From: a virus
Length of the DNA: 20,420 nucleotides
Virus record (IMG/VR): IMGVR_UViG_3300040806_002004
Location: 1 to 20,420 of that record
Strand: one strand, 5' to 3'
Below the pieces are notes generated by a model that ran no database searches, was not told where the DNA came from, and was given only the letters and a program-made list of their open reading frames with translations. Positions 766 through 20,420 of the stretch are shown piece after piece. A program made the position numbers and the translations under genes. How positions within the stretch are numbered: the first letter of the stretch is position 1; each line of letters starts with the position of its first letter.

Positions 766-1536
766 TTATTTCCAATATTTTTTTTGAAGTGAGTAGACAT
801 CAATAGGTTCTCTTTTCATATGTCCACCTTTAGTAAATGATGTTCCTTTTAAAGCATAACCTGCTAAAAAGTTTCTTCTAAATCTATTTGAATTATTTGG
901 TTCTGAACCATGAACTGTATGTGAATGTAAAAGTACCAGTTCACCTTTTCTTGTATTACCTTCTATCTTTCGGAAAGCATGTCCTTCTGGTAATACACAA
1001 GGTTTACCTCTTTCGTTTCTCCAATTTTTTGGATTGGTTTTAGTTCGTTCTTCATCAACTTCAATTGGAAGTATTGGTAATCTATGAGTTCCTTCTAAAT
1101 TCCACACAGCACCATTAAATTCATCGTGATTATCTAAGGCAAGGGCAACATTAACATACTCATTGTGTTTACAACCTGTGTAGAATGCATTTTGATGCAT
1201 ATCTCTTCCTAATTGACCTGGTGGTTTAAAGTAAGCCCAAGTTTGAGTACCATCAACCTTACCATCCATTAGAAACTCACAAGCTTCTATAATTTTAGGA
1301 TGTGAAAATAGTTTTTCTAATTTTTCTGATAATTTATGTGGATACGCAAATGGGTCCCATTCTCCCCATTCATCACCATTTTCTTTAGTAGTTAATTGTC
1401 TTTCCTGACGAAGTCTTTCTAACTCATCATTAACCTCATCGCATTCTTCTTCAGTAAGTAATTGTAGTGTGGAGAATCCTCGATATCTCCAATCAAAAGA
1501 AAGTTGTTGTTTTTCTTCTTCAGTAAGATAATTCAT
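766..1536 (-). CDS. PhyH-family 2OG-Fe(II) dioxygenase-like protein
   Basis: This is a 256-residue protein of the phytanoyl-CoA dioxygenase (PhyH) family, whose members use iron and 2-oxoglutarate to hydroxylate small molecules. Visible family features are a first metal-site motif MHQNAFY (His114), a core strand with NGAVWNLEGTHR (141-152), the distal-His block GELVLLHSHTVHGSEPN (198-214, probably His209), and a basic NRFRR segment (217-221) that would bind 2-oxoglutarate. The family's HxD motif reads His114-Gln-Asn116, so the metal-binding carboxylate is replaced by Asn. The length is normal for the family. AAGG lies a few bases ahead of the ATG. The gene follows the baseplate cluster but has no structural role that I can infer. 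The substrate is unknown, and the altered metal site makes activity uncertain. Confidence 0.85.
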   Translation of the reverse strand: MNYLTEEEKQQLSFDWRYRGFSTLQLLTEEECDEVNDELERLRQERQLTTKENGDEWGEWDPFAYPHKLSEKLEKLFSHPKIIEACEFLMDGKVDGTQTWAYFKPPGQLGRDMHQNAFYTGCKHNEYVNVALALDNHDEFNGAVWNLEGTHRLPILPIEVDEERTKTNPKNWRNERGKPCVLPEGHAFRKIEGNTRKGELVLLHSHTVHGSEPNNSNRFRRNFLAGYALKGTSFTKGGHMKREPIDVYSLQKKYWK

Positions 1537-1569
1537 ATAACCTTGATTTAGTTTGTATATCTATATATA

Positions 1570-1956
1570 TTAACTTTTGTAAAATTGTAATAAATTTGGA
1601 AGATATAATTTCAAGTTTGGAATTGCATTTCCTACAAATTGTATTGCAATTCTATTTGATTCTGATACCGATTTATCTACTACATTACCAACATCATCAT
1701 ACTGAACTTGTTTCGGGCCTTTTATTCTCCATTTAATATCAGCTACAGTATATAATGGATTTGTAACATACTTAGATTTATCATCTTGTGATACTTCATA
1801 TATAGGAGAACCTTTATCATTTGTTTTTTGAACAAAATATCTTCGTATATAACCTCTGTTATAATCAGACTCAGATGGTTTAGGAATATATGCCTTTATA
1901 CCCCTTTCCACCAAAGGTGTTTTTATAAGTTCATTATATCTATCTTTTATATTCAT
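1570..1956 (-). CDS. Baseplate-cluster protein of unknown function (128 aa)
   Basis: This is a 128-residue soluble protein whose ATG directly follows the TAA of the hub gene (TAAATG), so the two are translationally coupled. The sequence is basic at the N-terminus (YNRGYIRRYFVQK, residues 33-45) and has a WRIKGP motif and a C-terminal NLKLYLPNLLQFYK segment. No signal peptide or membrane segment is seen. Its place as the last gene of the tape measure/initiator/LysM/hub operon suggests a small baseplate component or assembly factor. That role is inferred from context only. I do not recognise a named T4 counterpart. Confidence 0.75.
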   Translation of the reverse strand: MNIKDRYNELIKTPLVERGIKAYIPKPSESDYNRGYIRRYFVQKTNDKGSPIYEVSQDDKSKYVTNPLYTVADIKWRIKGPKQVQYDDVGNVVDKSVSESNRIAIQFVGNAIPNLKLYLPNLLQFYKS

Positions 1957-4455
1957 TTATACTTCACTACCAATTAATCTAAAATCACAAGTTATAGCAG
2001 TACTCCAAGAAGTTCCACTTATAGATTGTGAAGTTTTAACTACTTGATAAAAACTTGGTGGCCCATACTTCAATGGTATTCCTTCAAATTGAATCATATC
2101 TCCAACTTTAAATCCACTTAAACCTTGAATAGTAAATTGAACTTTAGCAAGACCAGGAATTGGATTTACTCTATTTGTATATTCTTTATCAACTTCACCA
2201 TTAACACCTTTTTTTAATCCTCTATCAATCAATTCTACGGATTTTAATGCAGCTTTATCATCCCAAGTACCAACACATAATAAGGATTCAATATTACCAT
2301 TATCTTTTTTAGTTAATTCTTTATCTGTTAAATTATTAACAATATCAATTTTACCTTTTCTATTTTGTATTCTTGAAAATACACCTGCTCTGTTAGCGAA
2401 TAAATCAAAAGTTTTTGCATTAGCTGGTGGAGTTTCTTCTTCTTGATTTTCAAGTGTTTCTGGTTCATCAGATTCTCCTTGTGCGGATATCTTATTTAAA
2501 ATAGTACCTACCTTATCTTCAACTTCACCAGGGTCTGAAAAAACTCCTCCATATAAAGCATGTGGTGTATCTCCACTACCATCAACTTTATTGTTAGACA
2601 TTTTTTTAATCATAACACTACTTTGTAATGCACCAGGTATTGACATATCCCAACTTATTGATGTAAATGGTGATTTAACACCTCTTGCCTGATAGGTTGC
2701 AATATTTTCAACCGTTTCTTCAGGAATATAACCTCTAAATGTTACATCTTCTACACACAATACAGTTGGCCCATCAGGGTCGTTTAATGCAGGCCCTTCT
2801 CTTAATTGAAAATCCCAAATAGAATTACAAGCACCACTCATACCATTCAACATTTCAAATAAAGCATCTTTTGAGTTCATATTTGATTTTGATAAACATT
2901 CTACAAAGAAATGATAATTTATATATAAATCTTTTAACCAACCCCAAAAACCAGCTCGTTCTTGTAAAGGTTCTACGGTATCATCACAACTATATGTTAA
3001 TATACTTTCATCCAAGTCATACAAACAGGGAAACGCAAAAGGAACGGGTCTTGATTGACCTGTTGCTGGGTCATTAGCTGAACCATTTTTTTCTGCTCTT
3101 TCATCATCAGGAGCTTGTTCTACCAAAGGATGTAAGTTAGCTTGAAACTCTACATTATTTAATTCTTCAAAATTTATAAATTTTACTGGTTCTTCGTTCC
3201 CAGAATCTACAAGAGCTTGTCTTAATCCAAAATTAGGTGCTTGTGTATTTGGAACATATAATACTGATTTATCAGTACTCCACATATGTGGAAATGCCTT
3301 TATAGCTGTATTGGAAATATCTATTTTTAATAATTGGCTTTTTATACCTGAACACTCAGTTTCTTTAGGTTCTAAATCCATTACAAATGAATTAAATAGT
3401 TCTACAGCTAATTCAAATCTAATAAATCTTTCCTCATCAAAAAGAGGTACATCAGTTGGTATTTCTAACTTATCTCCACTTTTATTTCTAATAGTAGCAC
3501 CTTTAGTAAGTGTTTTTAATAAATAATCTTTGATTTCTTCATCAAAATTTACAAAGTTACCTTCGTAAGCCCAACTTACTCCATTAGAATCTGCACCACT
3601 TGCCCATTTTTTTATTCTTGCTGTTTTTTTGGTATTAGGTAATCCATTATACATTTGTTTAAATAAAGCAACACCAGGAGTACTCTCTCCAATTTTCTCT
3701 GGTTCAAATGATGGTGGATTGTTTTCATCTACAATATCTGTTCTATTACCACTACTTTGAACTTGCATATATTCGGCTACTTGACCAACACCAGAAGTTT
3801 TTACTTCAACATCATACGTTTCACCATCACCAAACTTAACACCACCACCAGTTACAATACCTAATGATGCATCATATTGATATTTAGAATTTTTTCTTTT
3901 TTCTTTTAAGAATGGCCAATTATTATATTGAGCTATATCACATGGAGTTATAGCTCCTCCACCACCTACTCTTTGAGAATAAGCATCATTGACATTCCAT
4001 CCCCATTCTGTTAATATATGAAATCCTGGTTCTAAGAAATATTTAGTTACAACATCTACTTGTTCCATTGTGAAACATCTAACATTAAAACTAATTAATT
4101 TTAATGCTCCTTGTTGGGCTTCATCTATTTTAAAATCAGTTATTATTGGTGAGGGTCTTAATCCTCTACCAGTACCTTCAATTTCAATAGGAGTTGATAA
4201 ATCAAGAGCATATCCAATAATACCAGGTTTACTATCATTTCCATATCTTTTTTCAAATTCAGTAGATATATTATATGAATCTGGTTTATGAATACTTTGC
4301 ATAACTAAACCATCATTTGCAGCTGATATCACTCGTATCCAAGTAGATAAACCACTAACCCCACCCATTGATATTGGGTTGTTAGTGTTCTGAACCCTTG
4401 AATCAAGAACTTCTCTAAGTTCAGGGTATAAATTTGAATACTTTGGAAAAAACAT
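1957..4455 (-). CDS. Large baseplate hub protein (832 aa)
   Basis: This is probably the central baseplate hub protein (gp27/gpD-like role), which joins the tail tube to the central spike. The N-terminal region (about 85-155) has a structural-protein segment with DLSTPIEIEGTGRG and LEPGFHILTEWGWN. The C-terminal region (about 765-832) carries a beta-rich block (GLSGFKVGDMIQFEGIPLKY, then YQVVKTSQSISGTSW) of the kind ending hub domains, where a tube-like barrel checks position and binding. It is about twice the length of T4 gp27 (391 residues), with a long middle section that includes a low-complexity acidic linker (DEPETLENQEEETPP). The gene starts 3 bases after the LysM gene and abuts the 128-residue gene. 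The hub call rests on C-terminal similarity and gene order, so a fused or expanded baseplate protein is the main alternative. Confidence 0.65.
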   Translation of the reverse strand: MFFPKYSNLYPELREVLDSRVQNTNNPISMGGVSGLSTWIRVISAANDGLVMQSIHKPDSYNISTEFEKRYGNDSKPGIIGYALDLSTPIEIEGTGRGLRPSPIITDFKIDEAQQGALKLISFNVRCFTMEQVDVVTKYFLEPGFHILTEWGWNVNDAYSQRVGGGGAITPCDIAQYNNWPFLKEKRKNSKYQYDASLGIVTGGGVKFGDGETYDVEVKTSGVGQVAEYMQVQSSGNRTDIVDENNPPSFEPEKIGESTPGVALFKQMYNGLPNTKKTARIKKWASGADSNGVSWAYEGNFVNFDEEIKDYLLKTLTKGATIRNKSGDKLEIPTDVPLFDEERFIRFELAVELFNSFVMDLEPKETECSGIKSQLLKIDISNTAIKAFPHMWSTDKSVLYVPNTQAPNFGLRQALVDSGNEEPVKFINFEELNNVEFQANLHPLVEQAPDDERAEKNGSANDPATGQSRPVPFAFPCLYDLDESILTYSCDDTVEPLQERAGFWGWLKDLYINYHFFVECLSKSNMNSKDALFEMLNGMSGACNSIWDFQLREGPALNDPDGPTVLCVEDVTFRGYIPEETVENIATYQARGVKSPFTSISWDMSIPGALQSSVMIKKMSNNKVDGSGDTPHALYGGVFSDPGEVEDKVGTILNKISAQGESDEPETLENQEEETPPANAKTFDLFANRAGVFSRIQNRKGKIDIVNNLTDKELTKKDNGNIESLLCVGTWDDKAALKSVELIDRGLKKGVNGEVDKEYTNRVNPIPGLAKVQFTIQGLSGFKVGDMIQFEGIPLKYGPPSFYQVVKTSQSISGTSWSTAITCDFRLIGSEV

Positions 4456-4458
4456 AAC

Positions 4459-4755
4459 TTATATCTTTCTAAAATTATTTACAATTTCATTATAATTTTG
4501 AGGTACTCTTAATGTTGTACCATCATCTAATGCAAAAGTAGCATCATGAAGATTATTAGCAGTTGCAATTATCCACCATAAAGATGAGTCTTTATAAAAT
4601 TCATTAGCAAGAGTATCTAATCTATCTCCAGTTTGTGTTACGATATAGATATCATTATCAGATTTAGGAATATTTGGATATATACGAGTTCGATATACCA
4701 ATCTCCCATCTTTTAATTTTTGTGTCTTATTATTTTCGTATCTACTATTTGCCAT
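4459..4755 (-). CDS. LysM-domain baseplate protein (gp53/gpX-like)
   Basis: This 98-residue protein consists mostly of a LysM-type domain. The stretch VTQTGDRLDTLANEFYKDSS (39-58), then LWWIIATANNL and LDDGTTLRVPQN, is the tail-phage LysM pattern seen in T4 wedge protein gp53 and P2 gpX. In tails these domains hold baseplate parts together and position the hub on the tube. The N-terminal 30 residues are basic and may be extended. The gene sits between the tube-cap/initiator and hub genes, as in many contractile tails, with gaps of 11 and 3 bases. It is shorter than T4 gp53 (196 residues), so only the domain, not strict orthology, is claimed. Confidence 0.85.
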   Translation of the reverse strand: MANSRYENNKTQKLKDGRLVYRTRIYPNIPKSDNDIYIVTQTGDRLDTLANEFYKDSSLWWIIATANNLHDATFALDDGTTLRVPQNYNEIVNNFRKI

Positions 4756-4766
4756 AATTTTATTTA

Positions 4767-6182
4767 TTAACCTGTTTTAGAATCTTCCGAAAAATCTGGT
4801 GTTTTAGGTTTTTCAGGTTTCCATTTATATCCATCAACATCACCTTCAAAATCATATAATTTATCTTCAACACCAGGAGTTTCTACTAATTTAATTGTAA
4901 GAGCTACATCAATAAATTTTGGTAATATAGCACCTTCAGTATCAATTTCCCATGTACCAGTATCTGGCATTGTATATGTAAGTGATTCAATAAATCCTAT
5001 TCGTTCTTTGTAGATATCACCAATCTGAAATTTTATGAAAGGAGCATCCATTACATCATTATTTATTTTTGGATATACTTTAGATGTTAAATACTGTAAT
5101 TTATTCCAATTTATTATCAAATCGGTAGCACTCATACAATAAACATTTAAATTAAATGTTACTGCTCTATCAACACCTTCATAGATATAGTAATTATATG
5201 GATTACCCAAAAATTTTGAACCTGTCCATGTTGGTGTACTCGTTTCACTTAATCCAGATATAACTGTTCTAAAGAATACTCTATCCGCATCAGGTTCTGT
5301 TATACCTTGAATCCAAAATGGGACTATTAACTTATCATCTACATTTTCAGGAACCTTAAAAGCCTTAACAGTTTGTCCAGCATCAGCAAGACCTGTCATT
5401 CCAATTCCCATTCTCTCAGTAACTTTTTCTGGTTCACCACCATTTTCAAGAAGTTTTGAATAATGATTATTCCCACCTTGAGTAAATGTAGAAGCTGGCA
5501 TTACTCCACCTGTACCTACATCATAGAATTCTCTTTTTGGTGTAAATTTAGGTAGAGCATCTGCTAATTCACCAGGTTTACCAAATAAAGCTCCTCTTAA
5601 TCCTTTTTTAGCAGCACCAATAGCACCACCAACTGCTTGTTTACCCAATGTAGATGGGTTACCTGCTGAATTTTTTAATAAAGCACCAAGACCAGTTCCA
5701 TTTTTACCATATCCTTCTCGTGTAACGGCTGTATTAGTTTGATGTACAGTCCAATCAAGAAGTGGTGTACCACTACCTTTTATAGCATCTTGTGCTCCAT
5801 CTAATTTAATAATTCTCGATGGCAACATGGTTTCTGGTATTCCAAGAAATGTATTAACAGCATCTCTAGCGGCACTAATACCTTTATTTAGATTTAACCC
5901 TCCTCCAGCATTATTAACACCACGACCCTCTTTCATTTCATCTTTATCAGGTGTAGTTCTTTGAGCTATTCTTACTGCCTGATTACCATATATAAGTGGG
6001 TTGTTTACATCTACAAGAGATTTTATTCTTATACCAGTAAGTTCTTGTTGAACGAAGTTTGTTACTTGTTGTTTAAATCCACCTCTATTTTCTTCAGCAG
6101 CAGAATCTACCAACCCATCAGCAGTTGAACCACCAGGGAAATTTAATTCTTTATTTTTAAATAATTCTAATATCGTTGGCAT
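4767..6182 (-). CDS. Baseplate tube initiator/cap-like protein (gp48/gp54 type)
   Basis: This 471-residue structural protein probably forms the platform on which the tail tube starts to polymerise. The C-terminal half (about 290-440) contains the recognisable part: DRVFFRTVISGLSETSTPTW, a YYIYEGVDRAVTFNLNVY strand pair, an INWNKLQYLTSKVYP helix and PFIKFQIGDIYKERIGFIES. This layout is typical of tube-fold initiator proteins related to T4 gp48/gp54. The N-terminal half is Gly/Ala-rich and probably an extended arm. GGAG stands before the ATG. The gene follows the tape measure by 12 bases and precedes the LysM gene by 11, which supports a tube/baseplate junction role. It cannot be assigned to gp48 or gp54 individually. 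Confidence 0.65.
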   Translation of the reverse strand: MPTILELFKNKELNFPGGSTADGLVDSAAEENRGGFKQQVTNFVQQELTGIRIKSLVDVNNPLIYGNQAVRIAQRTTPDKDEMKEGRGVNNAGGGLNLNKGISAARDAVNTFLGIPETMLPSRIIKLDGAQDAIKGSGTPLLDWTVHQTNTAVTREGYGKNGTGLGALLKNSAGNPSTLGKQAVGGAIGAAKKGLRGALFGKPGELADALPKFTPKREFYDVGTGGVMPASTFTQGGNNHYSKLLENGGEPEKVTERMGIGMTGLADAGQTVKAFKVPENVDDKLIVPFWIQGITEPDADRVFFRTVISGLSETSTPTWTGSKFLGNPYNYYIYEGVDRAVTFNLNVYCMSATDLIINWNKLQYLTSKVYPKINNDVMDAPFIKFQIGDIYKERIGFIESLTYTMPDTGTWEIDTEGAILPKFIDVALTIKLVETPGVEDKLYDFEGDVDGYKWKPEKPKTPDFSEDSKTG

Positions 6183-10075: not shown

Positions 10076-10802
10076 CCATTGGAATGGGCTTCACCTCCGT
10101 ATCACCAGTAGTTGGATTAGTGAAAGGGAATTCCATATTGATATCAGGCTGGTGTTTCCTAACATTTTCTCGGAATGCTCTTGTATCTCTTGTTAAAAAC
10201 TTATTGTTGATGAAATCATTGATTGATTTTACATCTTCTTTACCATCAACAGAGGTAATCATATATCGATACCTTGTAGTTAATTCAGCGGATGGTGCAT
10301 CTTGATTTAATCTATTTAATGCTTTAATATCAGCATCAATTTTCTTTTCATCACCATGAGTTAATATTCTCCATTGAAGATTTACTCCTGTTGTAGTGGT
10401 ATATGTATAAGAGTTTTCTCTATTTAGTAGTTCTAAATCAGTTTCTTTTGTTTGTACTTTTGATAAGTCAACAGATGTTTTATGAGTATCACCCATTTCA
10501 TCTTGTACCTGAACAGTATATTCTGGACCATAACCCAAAATACGAACTGCCAACATTATAGCATTTTTGTCCCCCAATATAATATCATCGATATTAATTT
10601 TCTTATCAACTATAATTGATTCGAATAACTTATCAAGTACCACCCCCTTTCTAATAAGATTCTGTGAAGCAAGAATTTCTTCTTCTTTCGCAGTCATGTA
10701 CTTGATTTCAATTTGACCAGAAGATAGGGGATTATCTTCAGGATAACATTTACCTTGTGATGGGAGTGATATCACTTCAGTAGGAAAATCGTAATTTGCC
10801 AT
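10047..10802 (-). CDS. gp26: T4 gp26-like baseplate/tail-assembly protein
   Basis: This 251-residue protein resembles the T4 gp26 family (T4 baseplate protein family). The N-terminal part has the characteristic order SLPSQGKCYPEDNPLSSGQI, EIKYMTAKEEEILASQNLI, a VLDKLFESIIVDKKINIDD helix and LGDKNAIMLAVRILGYG. The second half is charged and helical and ends VGFFWPTD. By gene order it sits exactly where contractile tails encode the first tail assembly chaperone: after the tube and before the tape measure, overlapping a small downstream ORF in another frame. I infer that it chaperones the tape measure rather than, or as well as, being a structural hub part. A TATATTTATA element lies 25 bases upstream. 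No clear Shine-Dalgarno is seen. Confidence 0.8.
   Translation of the reverse strand: MANYDFPTEVISLPSQGKCYPEDNPLSSGQIEIKYMTAKEEEILASQNLIRKGVVLDKLFESIIVDKKINIDDIILGDKNAIMLAVRILGYGPEYTVQVQDEMGDTHKTSVDLSKVQTKETDLELLNRENSYTYTTTTGVNLQWRILTHGDEKKIDADIKALNRLNQDAPSAELTTRYRYMITSVDGKEDVKSINDFINNKFLTRDTRAFRENVRKHQPDINMEFPFTNPTTGDTEVKPIPMGVGFFWPTD
10061..10070 (-). other. Candidate programmed frameshift site
   Basis: The mRNA reads GGG UUU UUU UGG in the gp26-like frame: a U7 run (10061-10067) preceded by four G. The downstream frame is open only from 10090, just after a TGA at 10091-10093, and the upstream frame stops at 10047-10049, so the run lies within a 44-base window. A Phe-tRNA on UUU (10064-10062) can re-pair on U's after a +1 or a -2 shift, and both enter the 80-residue frame. 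The fusion would read through GVGFF(F)GLPTNYS and be about 322 residues long. A short hairpin (CCCAT, 4-base loop, ATGGG at 10075-10088) lies just upstream. No clear downstream stimulatory stem is seen. Confidence 0.45.
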
Positions 10803-10826
10803 ATAACTTTAATTTAATTTGTTTTA

Positions 10827-10836
10827 TATAAATATA
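10827..10836 (-). promoter_or_regulatory. Late-promoter-like element (TATATTTATA)
   Basis: Exact copy of the element, 25 bases upstream of the gp26-like ATG and just downstream (in transcription order) of the tail-tube terminator. Its position between a terminator and the next gene supports a promoter role for the two chaperone-like genes. Confidence 0.5.
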
Positions 10837-10865
10837 TACTTTTTAAAAAGTTGAAAAAAAGACAC

Positions 10866-11471: not shown

Positions 11472-13853
11472 TTATGCCGAGAATGAAGCTCCTGTTGGGA
11501 GAATGTTGAAATCTAACACGATGAATTCAGCAGTTTTCGTTGGTTGTAAGAAAATCTGTCCAGCCAAGATGTTTCTGTCGATTACATCAGGTGTGTTATT
11601 AGTTTCATCCATCACTACTCGGAATGCATATAAACCTTGTCTTTGTTGGATTCCTTCTAAATATGGATTAACAGTATTTAGGAATCTTCCTCTTGTTTGT
11701 GCCGTATTTTGTTCGAACACCAAGTATCTTGATGTAGAAGCAATATACTTCTTAACTTTGATAAGTAATCTTCTTACGTTGATTCTATCAAGTGCAGATG
11801 CTCTATCTTGAAGAGTTTTCTGACCGAATGCAACGATACCTTCACCAGGGAACGCTGCGATTGGGTTAACTTTTCCTTCATATAGTGTATCTCTTTCAGC
11901 ATGTGTTAATCTGTTTAATACAGATACAGCACCTACGATACCACCTCTGTTTAAACCTGCTGGTGCAAACCATTCAGCGGCAACAGCATCGTTCGCTGCA
12001 TATATTCCAGGCATCAATACTGAAGGTGGAACTGCAGTTAATCTATTTGTTCTTGAATCGATTGTTTTAACCCATGGGTAGTAAGTACCAACATAGTTAG
12101 AATCTAAGTTACTTGCCTGTTCAACTGCCTGTGAAATACTATCAGTTGAAACTTGTCCTGTACCAGAGTTGTAAGTTACACCAACAACATCACCGATATA
12201 GAATGCATCTTCTCTTGCTTCTACCATATCAACCACTTTATCAAATACATAAGAGTGATGTCTACGAACAATACCAGGTACTGATACTAAGTTAATATCA
12301 AAATCATCTGGATTAGATACTGAGTTAATTGCCTTTACATAAGCAACTGAACCACTTGAAGTTGAAGTAGAACAATTGAATCCTTGAGTGTTACCACTAC
12401 CAAAGTTAGCAGATGAACCAGCAAGTGCTACTTCAGTTGTTGGAGATACACCATCGAATCCTTCTTGGAAACCAACAACAAATTGTCTCTTATTTACATC
12501 AGTTGAATCAGAACCTGTCAATTCGAATCCAAATGAGTGAGTACCACCATCAATCGTTACAGTACCATCAAATGCAAATACGGTAGTTAAACCATTTCCA
12601 GCTCCTGTTGGAATTGGTGATAAGAAATGTGCATTATCAGTTTTAATAGTTGTAGTTTCTAAATCAATACCACTATACTTAACTCCATTAGATGATGTGT
12701 TATCTTTTGAACCAGTGGAGAATATTACACCAGGAGTGATTGAATCTGAACCAGAGATTGGTGATAAATACTTACCATGTCCAAATGGTCCAGCAGTTAC
12801 AGGGAATGTACCCTCTGCCTTAGTTTCTACTCTAATAAACTTAGAACGATTTACATAATCACCATTTTCTGTTTGTTTTCCATTCGCATCGATAACAAGA
12901 TTTCTATCACCGATTACTTTCTTAATATAGTTTGGTGAAGCAGGGTCTAAGTTAACATTATTATATGTTTCTAAGATTACAGGTCTCTTATCTGTATCAG
13001 AGTATCCTCTAACAGCAACTGAGAAAGTTGAGTAATCAGTAGAATTATTAGTACCAGCGGCTTTTACACCAAATATTCCAATTTTATATTCTTTGTTATA
13101 ATTTGTACCATCACCAATAGTATGGAATCTGAAGAGGTCATGTCTTTCACCAGAAATTAACTGAGATTGTATCCAAGGAGTTGATGCATGTTGAATATCT
13201 TGTGTGAAAACTTGTTCTCCCAATTCTAAAGCGATTACTTGAGAACCACTTTGTGCAATATAGTTTGTTTGGTCACCAGCTGCTTTTTCAAAGTACTTAT
13301 AAACATAAGCCTTTTTAGAACCTCTTGGTGATTCACCAAATACATCGGAAATATCATTTCCTGCACTTGGAAGTACAGATGCTGATAATTCTGTTCCTAA
13401 CGCTGAACCACTAATATAGAATGCTGATGCAGATGGTTGAGAATCAATTAAATTTGCTGCTGTTTCAGCATCTGCAATAACACCAACTGATTCATCACCA
13501 GTGTGAGTTGCATGTAAAACTCCAACTAATTTTTCTCCTCCGTCAGAACCACTAATTACGATACCAAAAGGTCTTTGGTGAGTATATCCACCAATATGTC
13601 CAACACGAACAATCGTTACAGTTCCAGCTTCTCTTAGATAATTTTGTACGGTATATCCTGTATAGTACGAACCATCAGGTGTTCCGAATATTTCTTCAAA
13701 TTCTGATTGTGTATTTACAACGGTTGGTACGAAAGCAGGTCCTTTTTTAGTAGGTCCAATTATTGCTGCTCCGATTTCACCAATCCCTTGTGCTAAGAAA
13801 GATAAGTCATTCTCTCTTGTGAATACACCAGGTGATACAATTTTTTCTGCCAT
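11472..13853 (-). CDS. gp18: Tail sheath protein (gp18-like)
   Basis: This is the contractile tail sheath subunit. The N-terminus (SPGVFTRENDLSFLAQGIGE, then AAIIGPTKKGPAFVPTVVNT and EFEEIFGTPDGSYYTGY) and the C-terminus (LEGIQQRQGLYAFRVVMDET, DRNILAGQIFLQPTKTAEFI, DFNILPTGASF) carry the conserved sheath core that wraps the tube and interlocks between subunits. At 793 residues it is longer than T4 gp18 (659). The extra length lies in the Ser/Thr/Gly-rich middle (about 110-560), which in sheaths forms surface-exposed insertion domains. An AAGGAG Shine-Dalgarno precedes the ATG. The tail tube gene follows after 60 bases, the normal order. Confidence 0.96.
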   Translation of the reverse strand: MAEKIVSPGVFTRENDLSFLAQGIGEIGAAIIGPTKKGPAFVPTVVNTQSEFEEIFGTPDGSYYTGYTVQNYLREAGTVTIVRVGHIGGYTHQRPFGIVISGSDGGEKLVGVLHATHTGDESVGVIADAETAANLIDSQPSASAFYISGSALGTELSASVLPSAGNDISDVFGESPRGSKKAYVYKYFEKAAGDQTNYIAQSGSQVIALELGEQVFTQDIQHASTPWIQSQLISGERHDLFRFHTIGDGTNYNKEYKIGIFGVKAAGTNNSTDYSTFSVAVRGYSDTDKRPVILETYNNVNLDPASPNYIKKVIGDRNLVIDANGKQTENGDYVNRSKFIRVETKAEGTFPVTAGPFGHGKYLSPISGSDSITPGVIFSTGSKDNTSSNGVKYSGIDLETTTIKTDNAHFLSPIPTGAGNGLTTVFAFDGTVTIDGGTHSFGFELTGSDSTDVNKRQFVVGFQEGFDGVSPTTEVALAGSSANFGSGNTQGFNCSTSTSSGSVAYVKAINSVSNPDDFDINLVSVPGIVRRHHSYVFDKVVDMVEAREDAFYIGDVVGVTYNSGTGQVSTDSISQAVEQASNLDSNYVGTYYPWVKTIDSRTNRLTAVPPSVLMPGIYAANDAVAAEWFAPAGLNRGGIVGAVSVLNRLTHAERDTLYEGKVNPIAAFPGEGIVAFGQKTLQDRASALDRINVRRLLIKVKKYIASTSRYLVFEQNTAQTRGRFLNTVNPYLEGIQQRQGLYAFRVVMDETNNTPDVIDRNILAGQIFLQPTKTAEFIVLDFNILPTGASFSA

Positions 13854-13932: not shown

Positions 13933-14220
13933 CTATTCAGAATCTTTCTCTTCTAAATTTGCAGGAACAAAAGTATTAGTTTCTGGGTTATAATTACCAT
14001 CACCATACTTTTCATTCAATCCTTTAAACAATGTTTGTTCTTGCTCTTGTAACTGTTTATGTTGTACTAATAGTTGTTCTTCAATCTCAGTCAACTCATC
14101 TATTCTTCTTTTTTTCTCGATAGAAAGTTGTCCTAGCTGTGTAAATATTGCTGAAACATCTTGTCTTAACTTATTGATTTGTTGAACTTCTTCTTCTGTA
14201 AACTTAATTTCTTTTGTCAT
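13933..14220 (-). CDS. Small coiled-coil protein (95 aa)
   Basis: This 95-residue protein of unknown function is almost entirely helical, with heptad-like charged and Leu/Ile spacing from about residue 8 to 70 (EEVQQINKLRQDVSAIFTQL, then RRIDELTEIEEQLLVQHKQL). It ends in a short extended tail, GDGNYNPETNTFVP. It has no membrane segment. Small proteins of this look occur beside structural genes in T4-like marine phages, but I cannot name a role; an oligomeric assembly factor or linker is plausible. A TATATTTATA element lies 32 bases upstream. No Shine-Dalgarno is obvious. Confidence 0.8.
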   Translation of the reverse strand: MTKEIKFTEEEVQQINKLRQDVSAIFTQLGQLSIEKKRRIDELTEIEEQLLVQHKQLQEQEQTLFKGLNEKYGDGNYNPETNTFVPANLEEKDSE

Positions 14221-14251
14221 TTTGATATATTTTGTTTATAGTTCTTATATA

Positions 14252-14261
14252 TATAAATATA
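14252..14261 (-). promoter_or_regulatory. Late-promoter-like element (TATATTTATA)
   Basis: Exact copy of the element, 32 bases upstream of the small coiled-coil gene, inside a longer run of alternating A and T that follows a T-rich stretch. The A/T-rich setting makes a chance match more likely here than at the other copies. Confidence 0.45.
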
Positions 14262-14284
14262 TAGTTTTTTTCAAAACATAAAAA

Positions 14285-15610
14285 TTATCTCGTAATAGTT
14301 AATGAACTTGTCCATGAACTATTTAAACCATGGTCAATCGCTCTTACTCTAGCATAAAATGTCCCACTTCCTAAAGCAGTTACTACATTATAAGTAGTTG
14401 TACTATATTCATCAGCATCAATAATTGGTGATGAAAAATCAGAATTATTATCTACTTGTAATCTATATGCAGTTGCACCACTTACAGCATCCCATGTAAT
14501 ATTATGATTTTGAGCATTAACTTCAGTATATGCTAAATTAGTAGGTGCAGATGGTGCTGTCAAATCACTATGAGAGTTTCCACCTTTATTATGAGTTACA
14601 TATCCATTTATTAAATATGTATCTTGAGTTTCTACATCGATAGTAACAATTTCAACAGTATCTTCAACTACTTCAATTGAAGTTATATCAACTTCTACTA
14701 AATTACCATCTATTTTTTTAACTAATTTATCATTTGTAGTAATATGACCAAGTTTTTTAAATCTAAATAAATCATCGGTTGCATCTTTTACCAACATTGG
14801 ATGGTCTTGTGTTGCTTTAATTTCTCCATCATTGATATTATAATATCCATCTGAAAATGAAAATACAACATTTACTACTTCAACTTCCTCTTCGGCCTCA
14901 CCCTTTTCTTCAGATGACCAATTGTAAAAATTACCATCAGAATCTTCAGATAAACCACTAAAAGAGTACCCTTGTAATTTTAATCCTTCAGTTACATCTC
15001 CAGCTTCAATAGTAGAACCATCTGTTAATACAACAGGAGTATCTACTAAAATACATAACGAAGTTGAGTTACCATCATAAGAATCTACTGAATATACATT
15101 TTTTGTTAAACCAGTATTATAATTTGTAGCATGGTTATTATAACCATCTGCAAAAGTACCAGTAATTGTATGAGAATAATTACTCATTAAAGAAGTTTGA
15201 GCAGAACTAAATTCAGGATTCATAGTTCCTACTGTAATTTGATTTGTATAATCAGCAGAGGCCTCTAATGAAATATATCCTGCAGTATTACCTCCCGAAT
15301 TATATGTAGGTGATACTGCCCAAGTAAAATTTGCTCCTCTTGTTTTGATATCTCTAGCAAAATAGTTTCTAGCTACAGTTCCTTCTCCACTAAAGTTCAT
15401 GGTATAAGTTTCATTAGTTCCTTCTACAGCATATGTAAATCCTGTTACAGAATCAACAGAATCAATAGCAAAATCATCTAATGAAACCTGTGTGCCAGTC
15501 GTACCATTTATGGATTGTAATGCATTAAGTGATACATCAGTTCCTTGTGTTTGTCCTAATGCACCTGCAAGATTATTTAAACTAAGTGTATCTCCTGAAG
15601 TTCTGGCCAT
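14285..15610 (-). CDS. Structural protein with intein-like Hint domain and fibronectin type III domain
   Basis: This 441-residue protein has three parts. Residues 1-185 are a Ser/Thr/Gly/Asn-rich beta structural region, starting MARTSGDTLSLNNLAGALGQ. Residues 186-341 form a Hint (intein/hedgehog) domain with Cys186, the block-B motif T267-Q-D-H270 and a C-terminal V-T-H340-N341. Residues 351-441 are a fibronectin type III domain (PSAPTNLAYTEV, ITWDAVSGATAYRLQVD, FYARVRAIDHG). Hint domains cleave or splice their own backbone. The residue after Asn341 is Lys342, not Cys, Ser or Thr, so ordinary splicing is unlikely and cleavage more so. AGGA precedes the ATG. The gene lies between the glycosyltransferase-like and sheath-region genes, which suggests a surface or fibre-associated tail protein. 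Confidence 0.85.
   Translation of the reverse strand: MARTSGDTLSLNNLAGALGQTQGTDVSLNALQSINGTTGTQVSLDDFAIDSVDSVTGFTYAVEGTNETYTMNFSGEGTVARNYFARDIKTRGANFTWAVSPTYNSGGNTAGYISLEASADYTNQITVGTMNPEFSSAQTSLMSNYSHTITGTFADGYNNHATNYNTGLTKNVYSVDSYDGNSTSLCILVDTPVVLTDGSTIEAGDVTEGLKLQGYSFSGLSEDSDGNFYNWSSEEKGEAEEEVEVVNVVFSFSDGYYNINDGEIKATQDHPMLVKDATDDLFRFKKLGHITTNDKLVKKIDGNLVEVDITSIEVVEDTVEIVTIDVETQDTYLINGYVTHNKGGNSHSDLTAPSAPTNLAYTEVNAQNHNITWDAVSGATAYRLQVDNNSDFSSPIIDADEYSTTTYNVVTALGSGTFYARVRAIDHGLNSSWTSSLTITR
14588..15055 (-). other. Hint (bacterial intein-like) domain
   Basis: The encoded domain spans residues 186-341 of the structural protein. It begins CILVDTPVVLTDGSTIEAGD, where the N-terminal Cys is the expected acyl-shift nucleophile. 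T267 and H270 match the intein block-B TxxH, and the end VTHN provides the penultimate His and terminal Asn for cyclisation. No homing endonuclease is present; at 156 residues it is a mini domain with an acidic Glu-rich insertion (about 233-245). Lys at +1 and the position between different host domains match bacterial intein-like domains rather than true inteins. Confidence 0.85.
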
Positions 15611-15619
15611 AATTGTTTC

Positions 15620-16618
15620 CTATATATTATAAATATTAAGTAAATCTTCTATCCACTTATCTTTGTTAGAAAACTCGCTTATCATATAATTTTTTAGTTT
15701 ATTGAACCATTTATTCTTTTCTTCATAGGATGATTCAATGATTCCATTATAAATATCTACAAATTCTTTTTTAGATGAAACTCTATATGGGTATTCAAAG
15801 TCAGAACACCAAGTTTTGTGTAATATTGGCAACTTTCCTCTATCAACGGCTTCAAATATACCATATCCAAATGGTTCGGATGAAAATGCAGAGTGTGATA
15901 TTCCCCAATCCATATTATAGAATATATCTTTGAATTTAGAATCATAGTGATAAATTTTAGATTTAGAATAATCATATTTACCAAACCCCTTCCATACAGT
16001 TTTGAAATGAAATGAATTTGTAAATATGAAAGATTTCAAACCATCTAAGTAATGTGGATTTTTCCTACCTTCACATCTTGAAGCAAAACCTAAATTATTT
16101 GATTCACTCAAAGGTAAATTGTATTTAAATTCGTAAAAGTTTGTTATTCTTTTATTTGGAATTAAAATATCATACAATCCTATCCATATATTATGTTTTG
16201 CATATTTAGTAACCTTTTGTTCCCAACTTGAATCTAAATAAGGATGCCAACCAAAATAAGCATCAGTTCCAACTTGTGATTTTAAGATATGGTCTACTGA
16301 ATTATGAAGAATATTTGAATGAATCTTATCTAAATTTTCTTCTATTACCTTCATTGGTGTATAATGTCCATGTAATATATTGATTCTTCGTGCTCCCTTA
16401 CATAGTTCTTCAAACTTTTCAATATCATCACCATGCCAATGAGCTTGTATCGGAAATTTATAATCTTCGTGTCCTTCTGGTTTGTTTCTATGAATAAGAA
16501 GTATAGGTTTTATTTGCAAATGAGGAACAATCAATTCCAACCATAAATTTACCCAAGCATCTGTTCCAGCGTTTACCCAAGGTCCACCGCCAGTAGTATA
16601 ATACACATCATATACCAT
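15620..16618 (-). CDS. GT-B glycosyltransferase-like protein
   Basis: This 332-residue protein has the look of a retaining GT-B glycosyltransferase (GT4-like), which would move a sugar from a nucleotide-sugar donor. The C-terminal half has the EX7E motif, E248-PFGYGIF-E256, followed by the AVDRGKLPIL loop typical of the donor site. An earlier FASRCEGRKNPHYLDGL segment (178-194) matches the Arg/Lys donor-phosphate region. The N-terminal half has GGGPWVNAGTDAWVNLWLEL and a beta-strand with LLIHRN, and is less standard. No membrane segment is seen. The ATG follows the fibre gene stop by 4 bases and the gene ends 9 bases before the Hint protein, so it is co-expressed with tail fibre genes. The acceptor is unknown: a phage structural protein or a host glycan are both possible. 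Confidence 0.75.
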   Translation of the reverse strand: MVYDVYYTTGGGPWVNAGTDAWVNLWLELIVPHLQIKPILLIHRNKPEGHEDYKFPIQAHWHGDDIEKFEELCKGARRINILHGHYTPMKVIEENLDKIHSNILHNSVDHILKSQVGTDAYFGWHPYLDSSWEQKVTKYAKHNIWIGLYDILIPNKRITNFYEFKYNLPLSESNNLGFASRCEGRKNPHYLDGLKSFIFTNSFHFKTVWKGFGKYDYSKSKIYHYDSKFKDIFYNMDWGISHSAFSSEPFGYGIFEAVDRGKLPILHKTWCSDFEYPYRVSSKKEFVDIYNGIIESSYEEKNKWFNKLKNYMISEFSNKDKWIEDLLNIYNI

Positions 16619-16622
16619 AAAT

Positions 16623-18440
16623 TTATTTTTTTACAATGATTAAACCTGTAAAAGTACCAGCAAAAGTTACAGTTACTCTATTTACTGAATTTGTTGTTAC
16701 TGATTCTGCTTGTTCTTGTTGTGAAGTTGAAGTATTCCAACATTGTACTATTGGATATTGTTCATTTAAGTTGTGGTCTACTACATATGAAGATGCTCCA
16801 CTAACTGTTTCTTTGTGAGTAGTTAAATCTGTTATTTGTGAAGAACCACTAATTACCCCTTGTGAATTGATATATGCAAGTGTATCTGCATCTGTATATG
16901 ATGTTACATCAGAAAAGCTTAAAACACCACTACCATCTGTAATAAGTGCTTGTCCATTTGTTCCATCAGATGTTGGGAATTTATATGCATCGTTAAAAGT
17001 AATCGCACCACCATCATTACCATCAATCTTAAATTGTGCAGCAGCAGCATCGATTGTGTTACCATCTTCACTAACTGTCAAAGTAAGTTGGAATCTATCT
17101 GCATTTGAGCTATTTGCATCTACTGCAAATTGACCTACTGTGGTATATGTTGAACCATTATACCTTTCAGAATTTTGTCTGTATATAAAATCACCAGCAT
17201 TATTTTTTGCAGGTGATGCTGAAGTACCTCTGGCTTTTCTTGTTCTAATATCAGGAGCATCTGAACTATCGTTATACTGCTCCATTCTAATTTGAGCAGT
17301 TTGTGCACCATCACCCGTCATATGAAGTGTAACTTCTGGGTTGGATTGATTGATACCTAAGTAATTATTTACGGTATCTAATGCAAGAATATTTGAAGAA
17401 GTGACTGAGTTTGTACCTGTTGCAATAATTGTTTCATTAGCAACAAAGTTTCCACTTTGTGAAACAAAACCTTCTAATTGAGATGAACCTGAGATTATTC
17501 CATCACCATTTAATTCTGCAAATACTCCATAATTAGAAATTTGAGTTGATGATGAAACCAACCCATCTATATCAAATAAATCAGAATCTATTTGTGCAGA
17601 TGATGATATAATTCCAGTAGGAATATTATTAAAATTTGTCCAATCTAAATAATAAGCACCATTTTGTCCATTTAATAAAGCAGTATTTTCTGAGATAAGA
17701 GAACCACTAATTAAGTGTCCTCCTTTTGCAACTACAACATATCCAGAATTTAAACTTGAAAGAGTAACTCTCGCTGTATTTAAAGTTGGTAAAGATGTGG
17801 TAGATGGTATTATTAAGTTTCTATCGTTGTCATATACTTGAACTAATATATTATAAGTGTTAAAGTTATGAGTTATAGTAATATCATCAATATTGTCATA
17901 AGAAGCAGTTACTGTTGTTGCTTCTGCAATTGAAATATCTGTTGGTAAATTTGTTAATTGAGAACCATCACCAACAAAATAAGATGCAGTTACTGCTCCT
18001 ACAAAGTTAGCACCTTTTGTAGTTTGGTCAATGGTAACTGCTGTACCATTTTCACCATCTGTGGCAAGAATTAAGTCTTGAGTTGCAAATATTCTAAAAT
18101 CACCTGATGAATTATCAAACGCACCAACATTGGTCATTCGTAATCCACTACCATTTTCATCAATTCTTAAAGTATCACTTACAAGAATTGAATTTCCACT
18201 ACCATTTGCATTGATATATGATGCAGTTATAGCACCATTTAAGTAAAGTGAACCTGTTATTGAAAATGGGTGTGAATTTGTTGTAAGTATTTCTTGTATA
18301 GATAGTGTTCCATCTGCATCTTTTTCAAAAAATATCCTACCATCGTAGGTATTCATTGCTAACTCACCTAACTCTAAGTTAGATATAGTTGGTATCTTAC
18401 CACTTACCGATGTTCTTTTTAATTTTACTATTTGTGCCAT
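16623..18440 (-). CDS. Tail fibre / receptor-binding-like protein (605 aa)
   Basis: This is a tail fibre protein. The N-terminus (KLKRTSVSGKIPTISNLELG, then ELAMNTYDGRIFFEKD, residues 6-41) resembles the baseplate-attachment N-termini of many phage fibres. The middle is a Ser/Asn/Gly-rich beta stalk with recurring I/VSxSxQI/L motifs (278, 295, 316, 530). A beta-sandwich-like module occurs twice: about 177-240 (ITHNFNTYNILVQVYDNDRN, GYVVVAKG) and at the C-terminus, about 545-605 (VVDHNLNEQYPIVQCWNTST, GLIIVKK). The C-terminal copy is the likely distal tip or trimerisation domain. Weak Shine-Dalgarno-like AAGG lies about 10 bases ahead of the ATG. A terminator separates it from the preceding fibre gene, so it probably has its own promoter in the A/T-rich gap. 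Confidence 0.8.
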   Translation of the reverse strand: MAQIVKLKRTSVSGKIPTISNLELGELAMNTYDGRIFFEKDADGTLSIQEILTTNSHPFSITGSLYLNGAITASYINANGSGNSILVSDTLRIDENGSGLRMTNVGAFDNSSGDFRIFATQDLILATDGENGTAVTIDQTTKGANFVGAVTASYFVGDGSQLTNLPTDISIAEATTVTASYDNIDDITITHNFNTYNILVQVYDNDRNLIIPSTTSLPTLNTARVTLSSLNSGYVVVAKGGHLISGSLISENTALLNGQNGAYYLDWTNFNNIPTGIISSSAQIDSDLFDIDGLVSSSTQISNYGVFAELNGDGIISGSSQLEGFVSQSGNFVANETIIATGTNSVTSSNILALDTVNNYLGINQSNPEVTLHMTGDGAQTAQIRMEQYNDSSDAPDIRTRKARGTSASPAKNNAGDFIYRQNSERYNGSTYTTVGQFAVDANSSNADRFQLTLTVSEDGNTIDAAAAQFKIDGNDGGAITFNDAYKFPTSDGTNGQALITDGSGVLSFSDVTSYTDADTLAYINSQGVISGSSQITDLTTHKETVSGASSYVVDHNLNEQYPIVQCWNTSTSQQEQAESVTTNSVNRVTVTFAGTFTGLIIVKK

Positions 18441-18480: not shown

Positions 18481-18502
18481 AGAAAATCCCTTATATAAGG
18501 GA
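18481..18502 (-). terminator. Palindromic terminator between fibre genes
   Basis: A perfect 16-base palindrome (18487-18502: TCCCTT, ATAT, AAGGGA) is followed on the minus strand by TTTTCT. It starts 10 bases after the stop of the S74-domain fibre gene and precedes the next fibre gene by 40 bases. The stem is short (6 base pairs) and the T-tract brief, so termination may be partial. The palindrome could also bind a dimeric regulator. Confidence 0.6.
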
Positions 18503-18512
18503 ATTAACTTTC

Positions 18513-18803
18513 TTATTGTAGTTTTGATTTTAATTCATCAATTTGTTTTTGTTGTTCCTTAATTGCTTCGATAAGGAGACCAGTAAGTTTTGCATAATCT
18601 ACACCCTTAAATCCATTATCTCTATCGTGAACCAATTGAGGAAGAACTTTCTCTACATCTTGTGCAATAACCCCTACATTTGGTAAAGATTGTTGTAATT
18701 CATCTGCATTTTCATTCCAATTCCAAGTTACACCTTTTAGAGATTGAACTTTTTCTATTGGATTAGAGATAAGTTCTATATTATCTTTTAATCTTTCATC
18801 TGA
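18513..18803 (-). other. Peptidase S74 / intramolecular chaperone domain
   Basis: The encoded domain starts at Ser-Asp of SSDERLKDN, the usual autocleavage position in endosialidase-type chaperones. It continues with WNWNEN, the conserved GVIAQDVEKVLPQLV core and a terminal amphipathic helix (LLIEAIKEQQKQIDELKSKL) that trimerises. Cleavage before the Ser would release about 96 residues and leave the mature fibre ending GGDVVAYAS. Confidence 0.9.
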
Positions 18804-20420
18804 TGATGCATATGCTACAACATCACCACCAACATTCAATGCTCCACTAATACCAACTCCACCAGTTACTTTTAGTGCTCCAGTTGTTTTAGATGTTGAA
18901 GCAGTTGAATTAGTAATATTAACTGCTGCTGAGAATGTTTTAGCTCCACTAAATGTTTGTGTTTCACTTAGGTGTGCCGTATTTGATGATAAGTAAGCAT
19001 CTGCAATTGCTGTACCTTGCCAAGTACCAGTTGAGATTGTTCCTAATGTTGTGATATTAGAAGTACCAGCCCATGTAGAAAGTGCTGTATTCTCAACATT
19101 TCCTAAACCAACATCACCTTTAGTTGTTGCTTGTGCTCTTAATCCACTATAAGTTCCATTTACTAATGCAATTTGAACTTCAGCACCACTTAAACCAGCC
19201 TTCCAATAACCATTCGTTTCATCCCAAAGTAAGGTTGCATTTGTTTCAGTGCCTCTTTCAATTGTAATACCACCATTTTGTGTTGGAGTACCAGTAACAT
19301 CGGCATTAAGTACAATGTTGTTATCACCAATGTTAAGAGTATTAGAGTTAATAAAGTTTGTTGTACCACTTACAGTTAAGTTACCTGGAACCGAAATAAT
19401 ATCATCTGAATCACCAAGTGTTAGAGTTCCTAAGTTAGCACTAAGTGCAGATTTAACATTTGCAGTTGAAGCATATTTATTAGTTGAACCTTCTGATAAA
19501 TTATCAGTAGATTTTGTTGCTAATCTCGTATCCCAATCAGAATCAGTATAGTGGTCTAAATCTGAAATTTGTGATTCAGTAATTGTAATTTGTGATGAAG
19601 CACTAATTACACCTTCAGCATCTAATTTAGTTTTAACTCTTGCATCTGTGTAGTAAAGATTAGTTCCTTCTGATAAGTTAGTTGTTGATTTGGTTGCTAA
19701 TCTTGAATCCCAATCTGAATCCGTATAATGGTCTAAATCAGAAATCTGAGATTCAGTAATTGTAATTTGTGATGAAGCACTAATTACACCTTCAGCATTT
19801 AATTTAGTTTTAACTCTTGCATCAGTATAATATAGATTAGTTCCTTCTGATACGATAGTTGTTGTTAATCCAGTCAATTCACTACCATCACCAATAACTT
19901 TACCAAATGAACCAGTTGATGTAGATGAACCAATAATATTACCATCATCAATTATAATACCAGGAGCTACAACTCTGTGGAAAGAACCAGTAAATGCGAA
20001 AACTGTATCGGCCTCAATACCATCAAAATAGGCATTTGAAAATGTAGAATTCTGTTCAAGAGCACTAATACCCCCAAGTATCGATAAAGAACCAGTCATT
20101 TGTATTCTAATAGCATCTGAATAAGTAACACTATCATACAAAAATAGATTGAAATTAGGATTAACTTTTAAATAATCATGAGAAGTTAAACCATTCTCCG
20201 AATTATAGAATGATATATGATTAGTTGTTCCCGAACCACTTAATACTGAATCACCATTTAATTCTAAGAAATCTCCTTGAATTTGTGCTGAACTACTAAT
20301 TACACCTTCGGCATCTAATTTAGTTTTAACTCTTGCATCTGTATAATACTTGTTAGTACCTTCTGATACATTTGTAGTTGTTAAGTTAGAAATATCAGTA
20401 CTTGCATCTACTTGTCCTAA
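18513..20420 (-). CDS. Tail fibre with S74 chaperone domain (5' end missing)
   Basis: This is a long tail fibre protein. The frame is open to the window's right edge, so at least 636 residues are encoded and the true start lies outside; the TTG at 20141 is not a convincing start. The visible part begins with repeated stalk units, each with EGTN.YYTDARVKTKL followed by GVISxSxQI: one at 20366-20280 and two full 59-residue tandem copies at 19850-19497. Then come beta-rich stalk segments (GNLTVSGTTNFINSNTLNIG, TTKGDVGLGNVENTALSTWA). The last 96 residues are an S74 intramolecular chaperone (SDERLKDNIELI, GVIAQDVEKVLPQLV, then a C-terminal coiled coil). The chaperone helps trimerise the fibre and is then cut off by itself. 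It heads the fibre module, with a terminator 10 bases downstream. Confidence 0.9.
   Translation of the reverse strand, partial: LGQVDASTDISNLTTTNVSEGTNKYYTDARVKTKLDAEGVISSSAQIQGDFLELNGDSVLSGSGTTNHISFYNSENGLTSHDYLKVNPNFNLFLYDSVTYSDAIRIQMTGSLSILGGISALEQNSTFSNAYFDGIEADTVFAFTGSFHRVVAPGIIIDDGNIIGSSTSTGSFGKVIGDGSELTGLTTTIVSEGTNLYYTDARVKTKLNAEGVISASSQITITESQISDLDHYTDSDWDSRLATKSTTNLSEGTNLYYTDARVKTKLDAEGVISASSQITITESQISDLDHYTDSDWDTRLATKSTDNLSEGSTNKYASTANVKSALSANLGTLTLGDSDDIISVPGNLTVSGTTNFINSNTLNIGDNNIVLNADVTGTPTQNGGITIERGTETNATLLWDETNGYWKAGLSGAEVQIALVNGTYSGLRAQATTKGDVGLGNVENTALSTWAGTSNITTLGTISTGTWQGTAIADAYLSSNTAHLSETQTFSGAKTFSAAVNITNSTASTSKTTGALKVTGGVGISGALNVGGDVVAYASSDERLKDNIELISNPIEKVQSLKGVTWNWNENADELQQSLPNVGVIAQDVEKVLPQLVHDRDNGFKGVDYAKLTGLLIEAIKEQQKQIDELKSKLQ
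19497..19850 (-). repeat. Two tandem 177-base repeats in the fibre gene
   Basis: Two adjacent in-frame units, 19674-19850 and 19497-19673, encode 59 nearly identical residues each (SEGTNLYYTDARVKTKL, GVISASSQITITESQISDL, DHYTDSDWDxRLATKST). A shorter related unit lies upstream at 20280-20366 and another SEG unit start follows at 19496. The DNA copies are also close, which suggests recent duplication or recombination that can change fibre length. Confidence 0.9.

Follow-up and report, generated by a model that had tools for sequence, protein, structure and literature searches.

A predicted GT-B glycosyltransferase gene paired with a Hint-domain protein gene behind the tail fibres of uncultured aquatic phages

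Why should a phage keep a glycosyltransferase gene between its tail fibres and its tail sheath, and which molecule would the enzyme modify? The question arises from a 20,420-nucleotide stretch of viral DNA (IMG/VR record IMGVR_UViG_3300040806_002004, positions 1 to 20,420; hereafter the window), whose source group is uncultured aquatic contractile-tailed phages. A sequence-only reading of the window had seen a GT4-like glycosyltransferase (GT) gene embedded in the tail fibre operon, and had offered glycosylation of fibre or surface proteins as the natural hypothesis and modification of host surface glycans as the alternative. The gene that it located is real, an ATG-to-stop open reading frame; its strand, which had gone unstated, is minus, the plus strand opposite being broken by many stops. 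In order of transcription the locus encodes an S74 fibre, a 605-residue protein, the GT, a Hint/FN3 protein, a 95-residue protein and the tail sheath (Table 1), followed by a tail tube, a hub protein, a 1103-residue protein of tape-measure size and further genes. As proposed, the GT gene lies among virion genes, co-directional with them and tightly packed, with the gaps already given of 4 bases from the end of the 605-residue gene and 9 bases to the Hint/FN3 start. The description of the upstream neighbour as a fibre gene is firm for the S74 gene, where PHROG tail-fibre families match 18513-20141, whereas the gene that actually adjoins the GT has only weak PHROG matches. The one terminator-like hairpin in the table is a weak signal, the scanned region holding 7 such hairpins where 3.0 are expected; the minus-strand scan from 16623 to 13853 lists none, and a promoter scan gave no information, with 42 hits where 50.5 are expected.

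Table 1. Features of the window at and around the GT gene
Feature	Coordinates	Strand	Basis or remark
GT-B (GT4-like) glycosyltransferase, 332 aa	15620..16618	minus	ATG-to-stop ORF; fold (predicted), conserved residues, purifying selection
Hint (bacterial intein-like) + FN3 protein, 441 aa, likely virion protein, candidate acceptor	14285..15610	minus	
Fibre-like 605-aa protein	16623..18440	minus	weak PHROG virion-structural/head-decoration/unknown matches
Tail fibre, C-terminal S74 chaperone domain	18513..20420	minus	Peptidase_S74 3.8e-16; 5' end beyond window
Terminator-like hairpin between S74 fibre gene and 605-aa gene	18487..18502	minus	weak signal
Conserved 95-aa protein between Hint protein and sheath	13933..14220	minus	gene order in relatives
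Tail sheath	11472..13853	minus	phrog_23 tail sheath 3.1e-67; anchor independent of GT

The encoded protein carries an exact EX7E motif, E248-PFGYGIF-E256, as had been read from the letters. As a mark of the family the motif holds in part: its first Glu is kept in all 124 distinct full-length relatives, whereas at the second position 89 of them have Glu and 35 have Gln (three relatives reading EPFGYGIIE were counted as E-E). Relatives are numerous in viral contigs, where 62 of 65 pattern matches encode them and a family-profile search confirmed at least 590 among at least 599 matches. The gene is under purifying selection, with dN between 0.085 and 0.200 against dS between 0.68 and 1.05 in seven pairs (dN/dS approximately 0.10-0.23). 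Profile searches gave the protein no name: Pfam at E values up to 1 returned no GT family (the best, at E 0.068, being an unrelated family), and the protein had no match in PHROGs at 0.01, in NCBIfam at 1 or among PDB sequences. Because no GT4 profile matches, we file it as GT4-like by fold and motif and not as a GT4 member.

The fold comes from an AlphaFold model (pLDDT 79.2, pTM 0.81) built from 27 window and locus sequences. Structure prediction had been named in advance as a check, and the predicted fold is GT-B of the GT4 type. Foldseek returned 106 PDB matches at E <=0.001, headed by the alpha-1,2-glucosyltransferase 7fg9 (2.0e-8), and VIA-align gave Z 21.8 to sucrose-phosphate synthase 6kih (rmsd 3.6, 315 residues aligned), the highest value among the matches listed, along with Z 20.6 to TarM, 20.4 to HepE and about 19.5 to SenB. 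Residues 11-19 (a glycine-rich loop), 108-128 and 182-185 fall below pLDDT 50, and the pocket is therefore poorly resolved in the model. An alignment of 12 members, reaching down to 32% identity, holds T9-G10, G18, D20, R181, E183, R185-K186, E248-PFGY and D259-x-GK invariant; the R, the K and the first Glu of EX7E we take to have a donor-binding role. In its whole-chain GT-B fold, first EX7E Glu and conserved R and K the protein resembles retaining GT-B enzymes of the GT4 type (TarM, HepE, BshA, PglA); unlike them it is shorter, is without a Pfam GT match, and in its relatives often has Gln for the second Glu.

Two readings of this fold would take the enzyme away from protein glycosylation. 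It could be a non-catalytic GT-like fold, either serving the tail as a structural or sugar-binding part or acting as chaperone to the Hint or fibre protein, which would suit both the variable second EX7E position and the fixed place of the gene beside structural genes. We give this little credence, because E248, R181 and K186 are invariant over the whole range of identity and because the glycan cassettes described below carry several further glycan enzymes. Alternatively, it could glycosylate phage DNA bases in the manner of the T4 glucosyltransferases, since the structural matches include T4 AGT (Z 18.4) and, from Foldseek, BGT. Many GT4 enzymes, however, score equal to or above AGT, and the family keeps company with fibre and Hint genes, not with those for replication or nucleotides; we regard this as the least probable of the readings considered here.

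The gene that follows the GT encodes a protein whose model (pLDDT 77.3, pTM 0.44) resembles the bacterial intein-like domain BIL2 (6y75) over residues 181-343 (Z 17.0) and FN3 domains over residues 350-441 (Z about 12); the protein also gives PHROG virion-structural and tail matches. C186, T267, H270, H340, N341 and K342 are invariant in 25 Hint proteins, so that after His-Asn all 25 have Lys342 in place of any Cys, Ser or Thr. According to excerpts of PMC5874633, these residues are to be expected in a bacterial intein-like domain of the A type, which lacks a splicing nucleophile. The likeness to A-type domains lies in the Hint fold, Cys1, T-x-x-H and His-Asn, while the position in a phage tail operon and the Lys at +1 set the window protein apart. 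Among 128 distinct complete Hint proteins (the truncated open reading frame of L032 being left out) 10 have only 2-9 residues after the last His-Asn, including most copies of the joined block described below and that of phage LR756508; release of an FN3 tail therefore cannot be the general purpose of the putative processing. Tails beginning 'HNI', considered for a time, arise from a later HN inside FN3, one of which occurs in the window protein, and were set aside.

Gene order in relatives was read first in sets chosen by the GT itself, namely 62 loci from the pattern matches and 80 of at least 590 profile relatives, which by construction cannot reveal related phages that lack the gene. In the 62 loci the order after the GT, as far as each contig extends, is Hint/FN3 gene, 95-residue gene and sheath, and a fibre-like gene usually precedes the GT. 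Directly upstream of 101 GTs at the sheath site stand a relative of the 605-residue gene (70), an S74 protein (10), another open reading frame (14) or the contig edge (7). Across the 124 distinct GTs a Hint gene comes next in 111, the head of a glycan cassette without Hint in 12, and in one (LR756508) the Hint gene precedes; the 12 without a Hint neighbour count against the explanation favoured below. A count of 101 out of 101 sheath-site GTs with Hint next (102 carried the label, one of them missing from the list of open reading frames) was dropped as evidence, since the sheath-site label is partly set by Hint, and we therefore rely on the 111 of 124 and on two tests with independent anchors.

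The first of these tests starts from the sheath and takes the best 80 of 598 sheath relatives, a locus being readable with at least 2 kb upstream. At sheath identities of 66% or more (63 loci) 41 were readable, with both GT and Hint in 40 and neither in one (L166); at lower identity (17 loci) 11 were readable and neither gene appeared in any. The two genes are thus jointly present (40) or jointly absent (12) in all 52 readable loci. These loci are related, some nearly identical and some on contigs also in the 62-locus set, and the 52 therefore come down to a small number of evolutionary events: a deep split, plus a separate absence in L166. In L166, a close relative without GT and Hint, other small genes occupy their place (a run at 1256-4968), one of which looks by eye like a response-regulator receiver. 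The second test starts from Hint: in the best 80 of 250 Hint-profile relatives the GT lies directly upstream in all 75 readable loci (at least 300 bp upstream) and shows in one of the other five. The gene that accompanies the GT most steadily is the one for the Hint protein, not the one directly upstream. The sequence-only reading had named a GT unlinked to fibres in relatives, or the lack of a GT-B fold, as findings that would count against it; neither was seen, and the association of GT, Hint and fibres recurs in the sets chosen independently of the GT and at other genome sites. Its interpretation is in this way partly borne out, for fold, motif and linkage, with the weight of the linkage moved from the upstream gene to Hint.

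Larger relatives carry the GT a second time. A distant copy was present in all four searched records of at least 130 kb that have a sheath-site copy (G001, G002, G003, G009), and fragments below 130 kb show a single copy. These second-type copies share 32-35% identity with the window protein, and in all 14 of their loci the genes after the GT encode Methyltransf_24, one GT2-like protein and two or three proteins of GT7 (beta-1,4-galactosyltransferase) type, the latter fused to LamG where scanned (Pfam matches were run on the cassette genes of L188, L189 and L190). A radical SAM gene is present in 10 of the 14, the rows for L196 and L202-L204 ending before its place. The G002 cassette includes a cytidylyltransferase too, and near a fibre of the same record are a UDP-glucose/GDP-mannose dehydrogenase and a GDP-mannose-dehydratase-like epimerase. 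An S74 fibre lies within four genes upstream in 6 of the 14 loci, and most of the others have another long, structural-looking open reading frame there. Tandem GT7 domains fused to LamG lectin-like domains were observed at 10049-12915 in L188 and 12016-14882 in L241.

Seven further loci (L212, L227, L234, L236, L241, L244, L249) hold a joined block of GT, Hint, Methyltransf_24 and GT2-like genes, with GT7-type genes in six of the seven (Pfam being run on L241); L206, L207 and two contigs of metagenome-assembled genomes (MAGs; L250, L251) have the same start. What in the window is a GT-Hint pair, and in larger relatives a separate cassette, is therefore one unit in cousin phages. Two records of this type (G010, G013) include a sheath, at a distance of some 60-70 kb from the GT. 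In a tree of 52 GT sequences, made up of 30 of the 102 sheath-site copies, drawn at random, and the full set of 22 from elsewhere, the cassette-type copies form a single clade (support 1.000) and those of the joined block fall together (0.821). A second Hint-bearing protein precedes the GT, besides the one after it, in L236 (6457-7773) and L241 (6778-7938). Downstream of the GT-Hint block, L227 encodes at 14183-14725 a Sulfotransfer_2 protein (7.5e-13), which is compatible with sulfated glycans.

Of 50,697 phage records, LR756508, a 484-kb uncultured phage, is the only one with the GT, and a search with the second-type copy agrees. Its GT is 35% identical to the window protein; its single phrog_38766 Hint match adjoins the GT upstream, about 76 kb from the sheath. 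Downstream come a 507-residue protein, a 509-residue protein that is GT-A-like by eye (no Pfam match) and, further on, a protein with a Gly_transf_sug domain (9.7e-8) and one whose N-terminus resembles by eye that of the L189 fibre. A cellular origin of the family was considered and set aside: a first pattern scan of genome contigs confirmed none of 13 matches, and a family-profile scan confirmed 3 of 173, all on MAG contigs with the same cassettes, with no separate cellular homologue found. Neither Microcystis phage Mel-JY01 nor Flavobacterium phage immuto, whose sheaths are the nearest among named phages, has the GT. Near its sheath Mel-JY01 encodes an unannotated 333-residue protein (L111, 13613-14614) in a place comparable to that of the Hint gene, with no match in Pfam, PHROG or the GT family.

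The main rival to glycosylation of the virion is that GT and cassette act on the surface glycans of the host, or on the precursors of these, blocking superinfection or the binding of progeny to debris, in which case the position beside the fibres would reflect co-inheritance with host-range genes. Modification of host polysaccharides is the published reading of jumbo-phage GT clusters (in excerpts of PMC7824862), and the GT4 structural matches include the surface-glycan builders TarM, HepE and WaaG. Against this, the GT lies inside the tail operon and not in an early region, and its near-obligate partner is a virion-like protein. Moreover, the 151 genes that make up 18 cassette loci, counted from the GT on, include none that encodes a hydrophobic 19-mer under a simple hydropathy cut-off, and no flippase or membrane-bound GT is therefore seen there. 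O-antigen seroconversion (Gtr) cassettes consist of a membrane flippase and membrane-bound glycosyltransferases, and the cassettes of the window family differ from them in having no such membrane-type genes. We consider host-glycan modification unlikely, yet the most credible of the alternatives.

The explanation that we favour, and hold to be rather likely, is phage-encoded glycosylation of a virion protein, most probably the Hint protein or the neighbouring fibre. As we infer it, the GT would be a catalytically active, late-expressed, soluble GT-B enzyme, probably retaining and co-produced with tail proteins, that would move a sugar from a nucleotide-sugar donor to a virion protein before or during tail assembly. 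It would serve a phage-encoded glycosylation pathway whose other steps may be found in the fibre-linked cassette elsewhere in larger related genomes (GT2-like enzyme, two GT7-LamG enzymes, methyltransferase, radical SAM and nucleotide-sugar enzymes). The likeliest acceptor would be the co-encoded Hint protein or the adjacent fibre, glycosylated in some order relative to the putative Hint processing. That GT and Hint are missing from the same loci favours the Hint protein; copies of the cassette type that lack a Hint neighbour suggest an upstream structural protein instead. This explanation must be tempered by the low confidence with which the active-site loops 11-19 and 182-185 are modelled.

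A bolder version would make the Hint domain itself the attachment machine, ligating the glycan of the GT or cassette to the C-terminus of a virion protein. A thioester at the Hint cysteine would be attacked by an amine or hydroxyl of the glycan, or of a glycosylated carrier, and the glycan would be joined to the C-terminus much as cholesterol is in Hedgehog. If true, this would explain why Hint is never found without GT, why Lys stands in place of the splicing nucleophile, and why the tail after His-Asn is near-absent in most joined-block phages and LR756508; we nevertheless think it very improbable.

Virion glycosylation by phage enzymes has precedent in mycobacteriophages, whose GTs place glycans on capsid and tail proteins (Freeman et al. 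2023, as relayed in excerpts of PMC12619734). The likeness, phage-encoded GTs glycosylating virion proteins, is for the window phage a proposal from its genes; what differs is the setting, since in the contractile-tailed, uncultured phages of aquatic origin considered here the GT is paired both with a Hint protein and with a cassette of the GT7-LamG kind. Jumbo phages and cyanophages are likewise large phages with several GTs beside nucleotide-sugar enzymes, and differ, in the excerpts of PMC7824862, from the window type, whose GT has a constant place after the tail fibres and next to a Hint protein. Moraphages, too, are large aquatic phages, with four core GT orthogroups, and a GT-Hint-fibre linkage is not described in the passages of PMC12619734 that concern them. 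Moraphage identity, considered for these core orthogroups, was not upheld by a test for lysine-tRNA ligase: TIGR00499 was found in none of five records, which may be incomplete, and the marker is common, not universal. The same source gives this ligase an occurrence of 24 (its Table 2), with 28 genomes including three ERM phages in Table 1. Published titles and abstracts on phage glycosylation, in a partial coverage of the literature, yielded no description of the GT-Hint pair. Hundreds of viral contigs carry the pair, and a common group of aquatic phages may thus coat its tails with self-made glycans, which if true would bear on receptor binding, stability and recognition. The near-obligate pairing also brings within reach of experiment a possible connection of two post-translational events in a single phage structure; such a connection, if real, would suggest that Hint domains have a function in the virion proteins of phages.

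Two kinds of minor observation accompany these results. At the far end of the tail gene run, the window encodes a PhyH-type 2OG-Fe(II) oxygenase (766-1536, minus strand, 5e-18), and in L227 a 2OG-Fe(II) oxygenase gene (10129-10848) directly follows the Hint gene; hydroxylation may belong to the same modification theme. Finally, the N-terminus of the Hint/FN3 protein of the window and that of the protein encoded at 4614-6767 in L188 show by eye a common pattern, SG..LS...L with a later DF, and the pattern is perhaps a virion-attachment module common to Hint/FN3 and pre-GT structural proteins.
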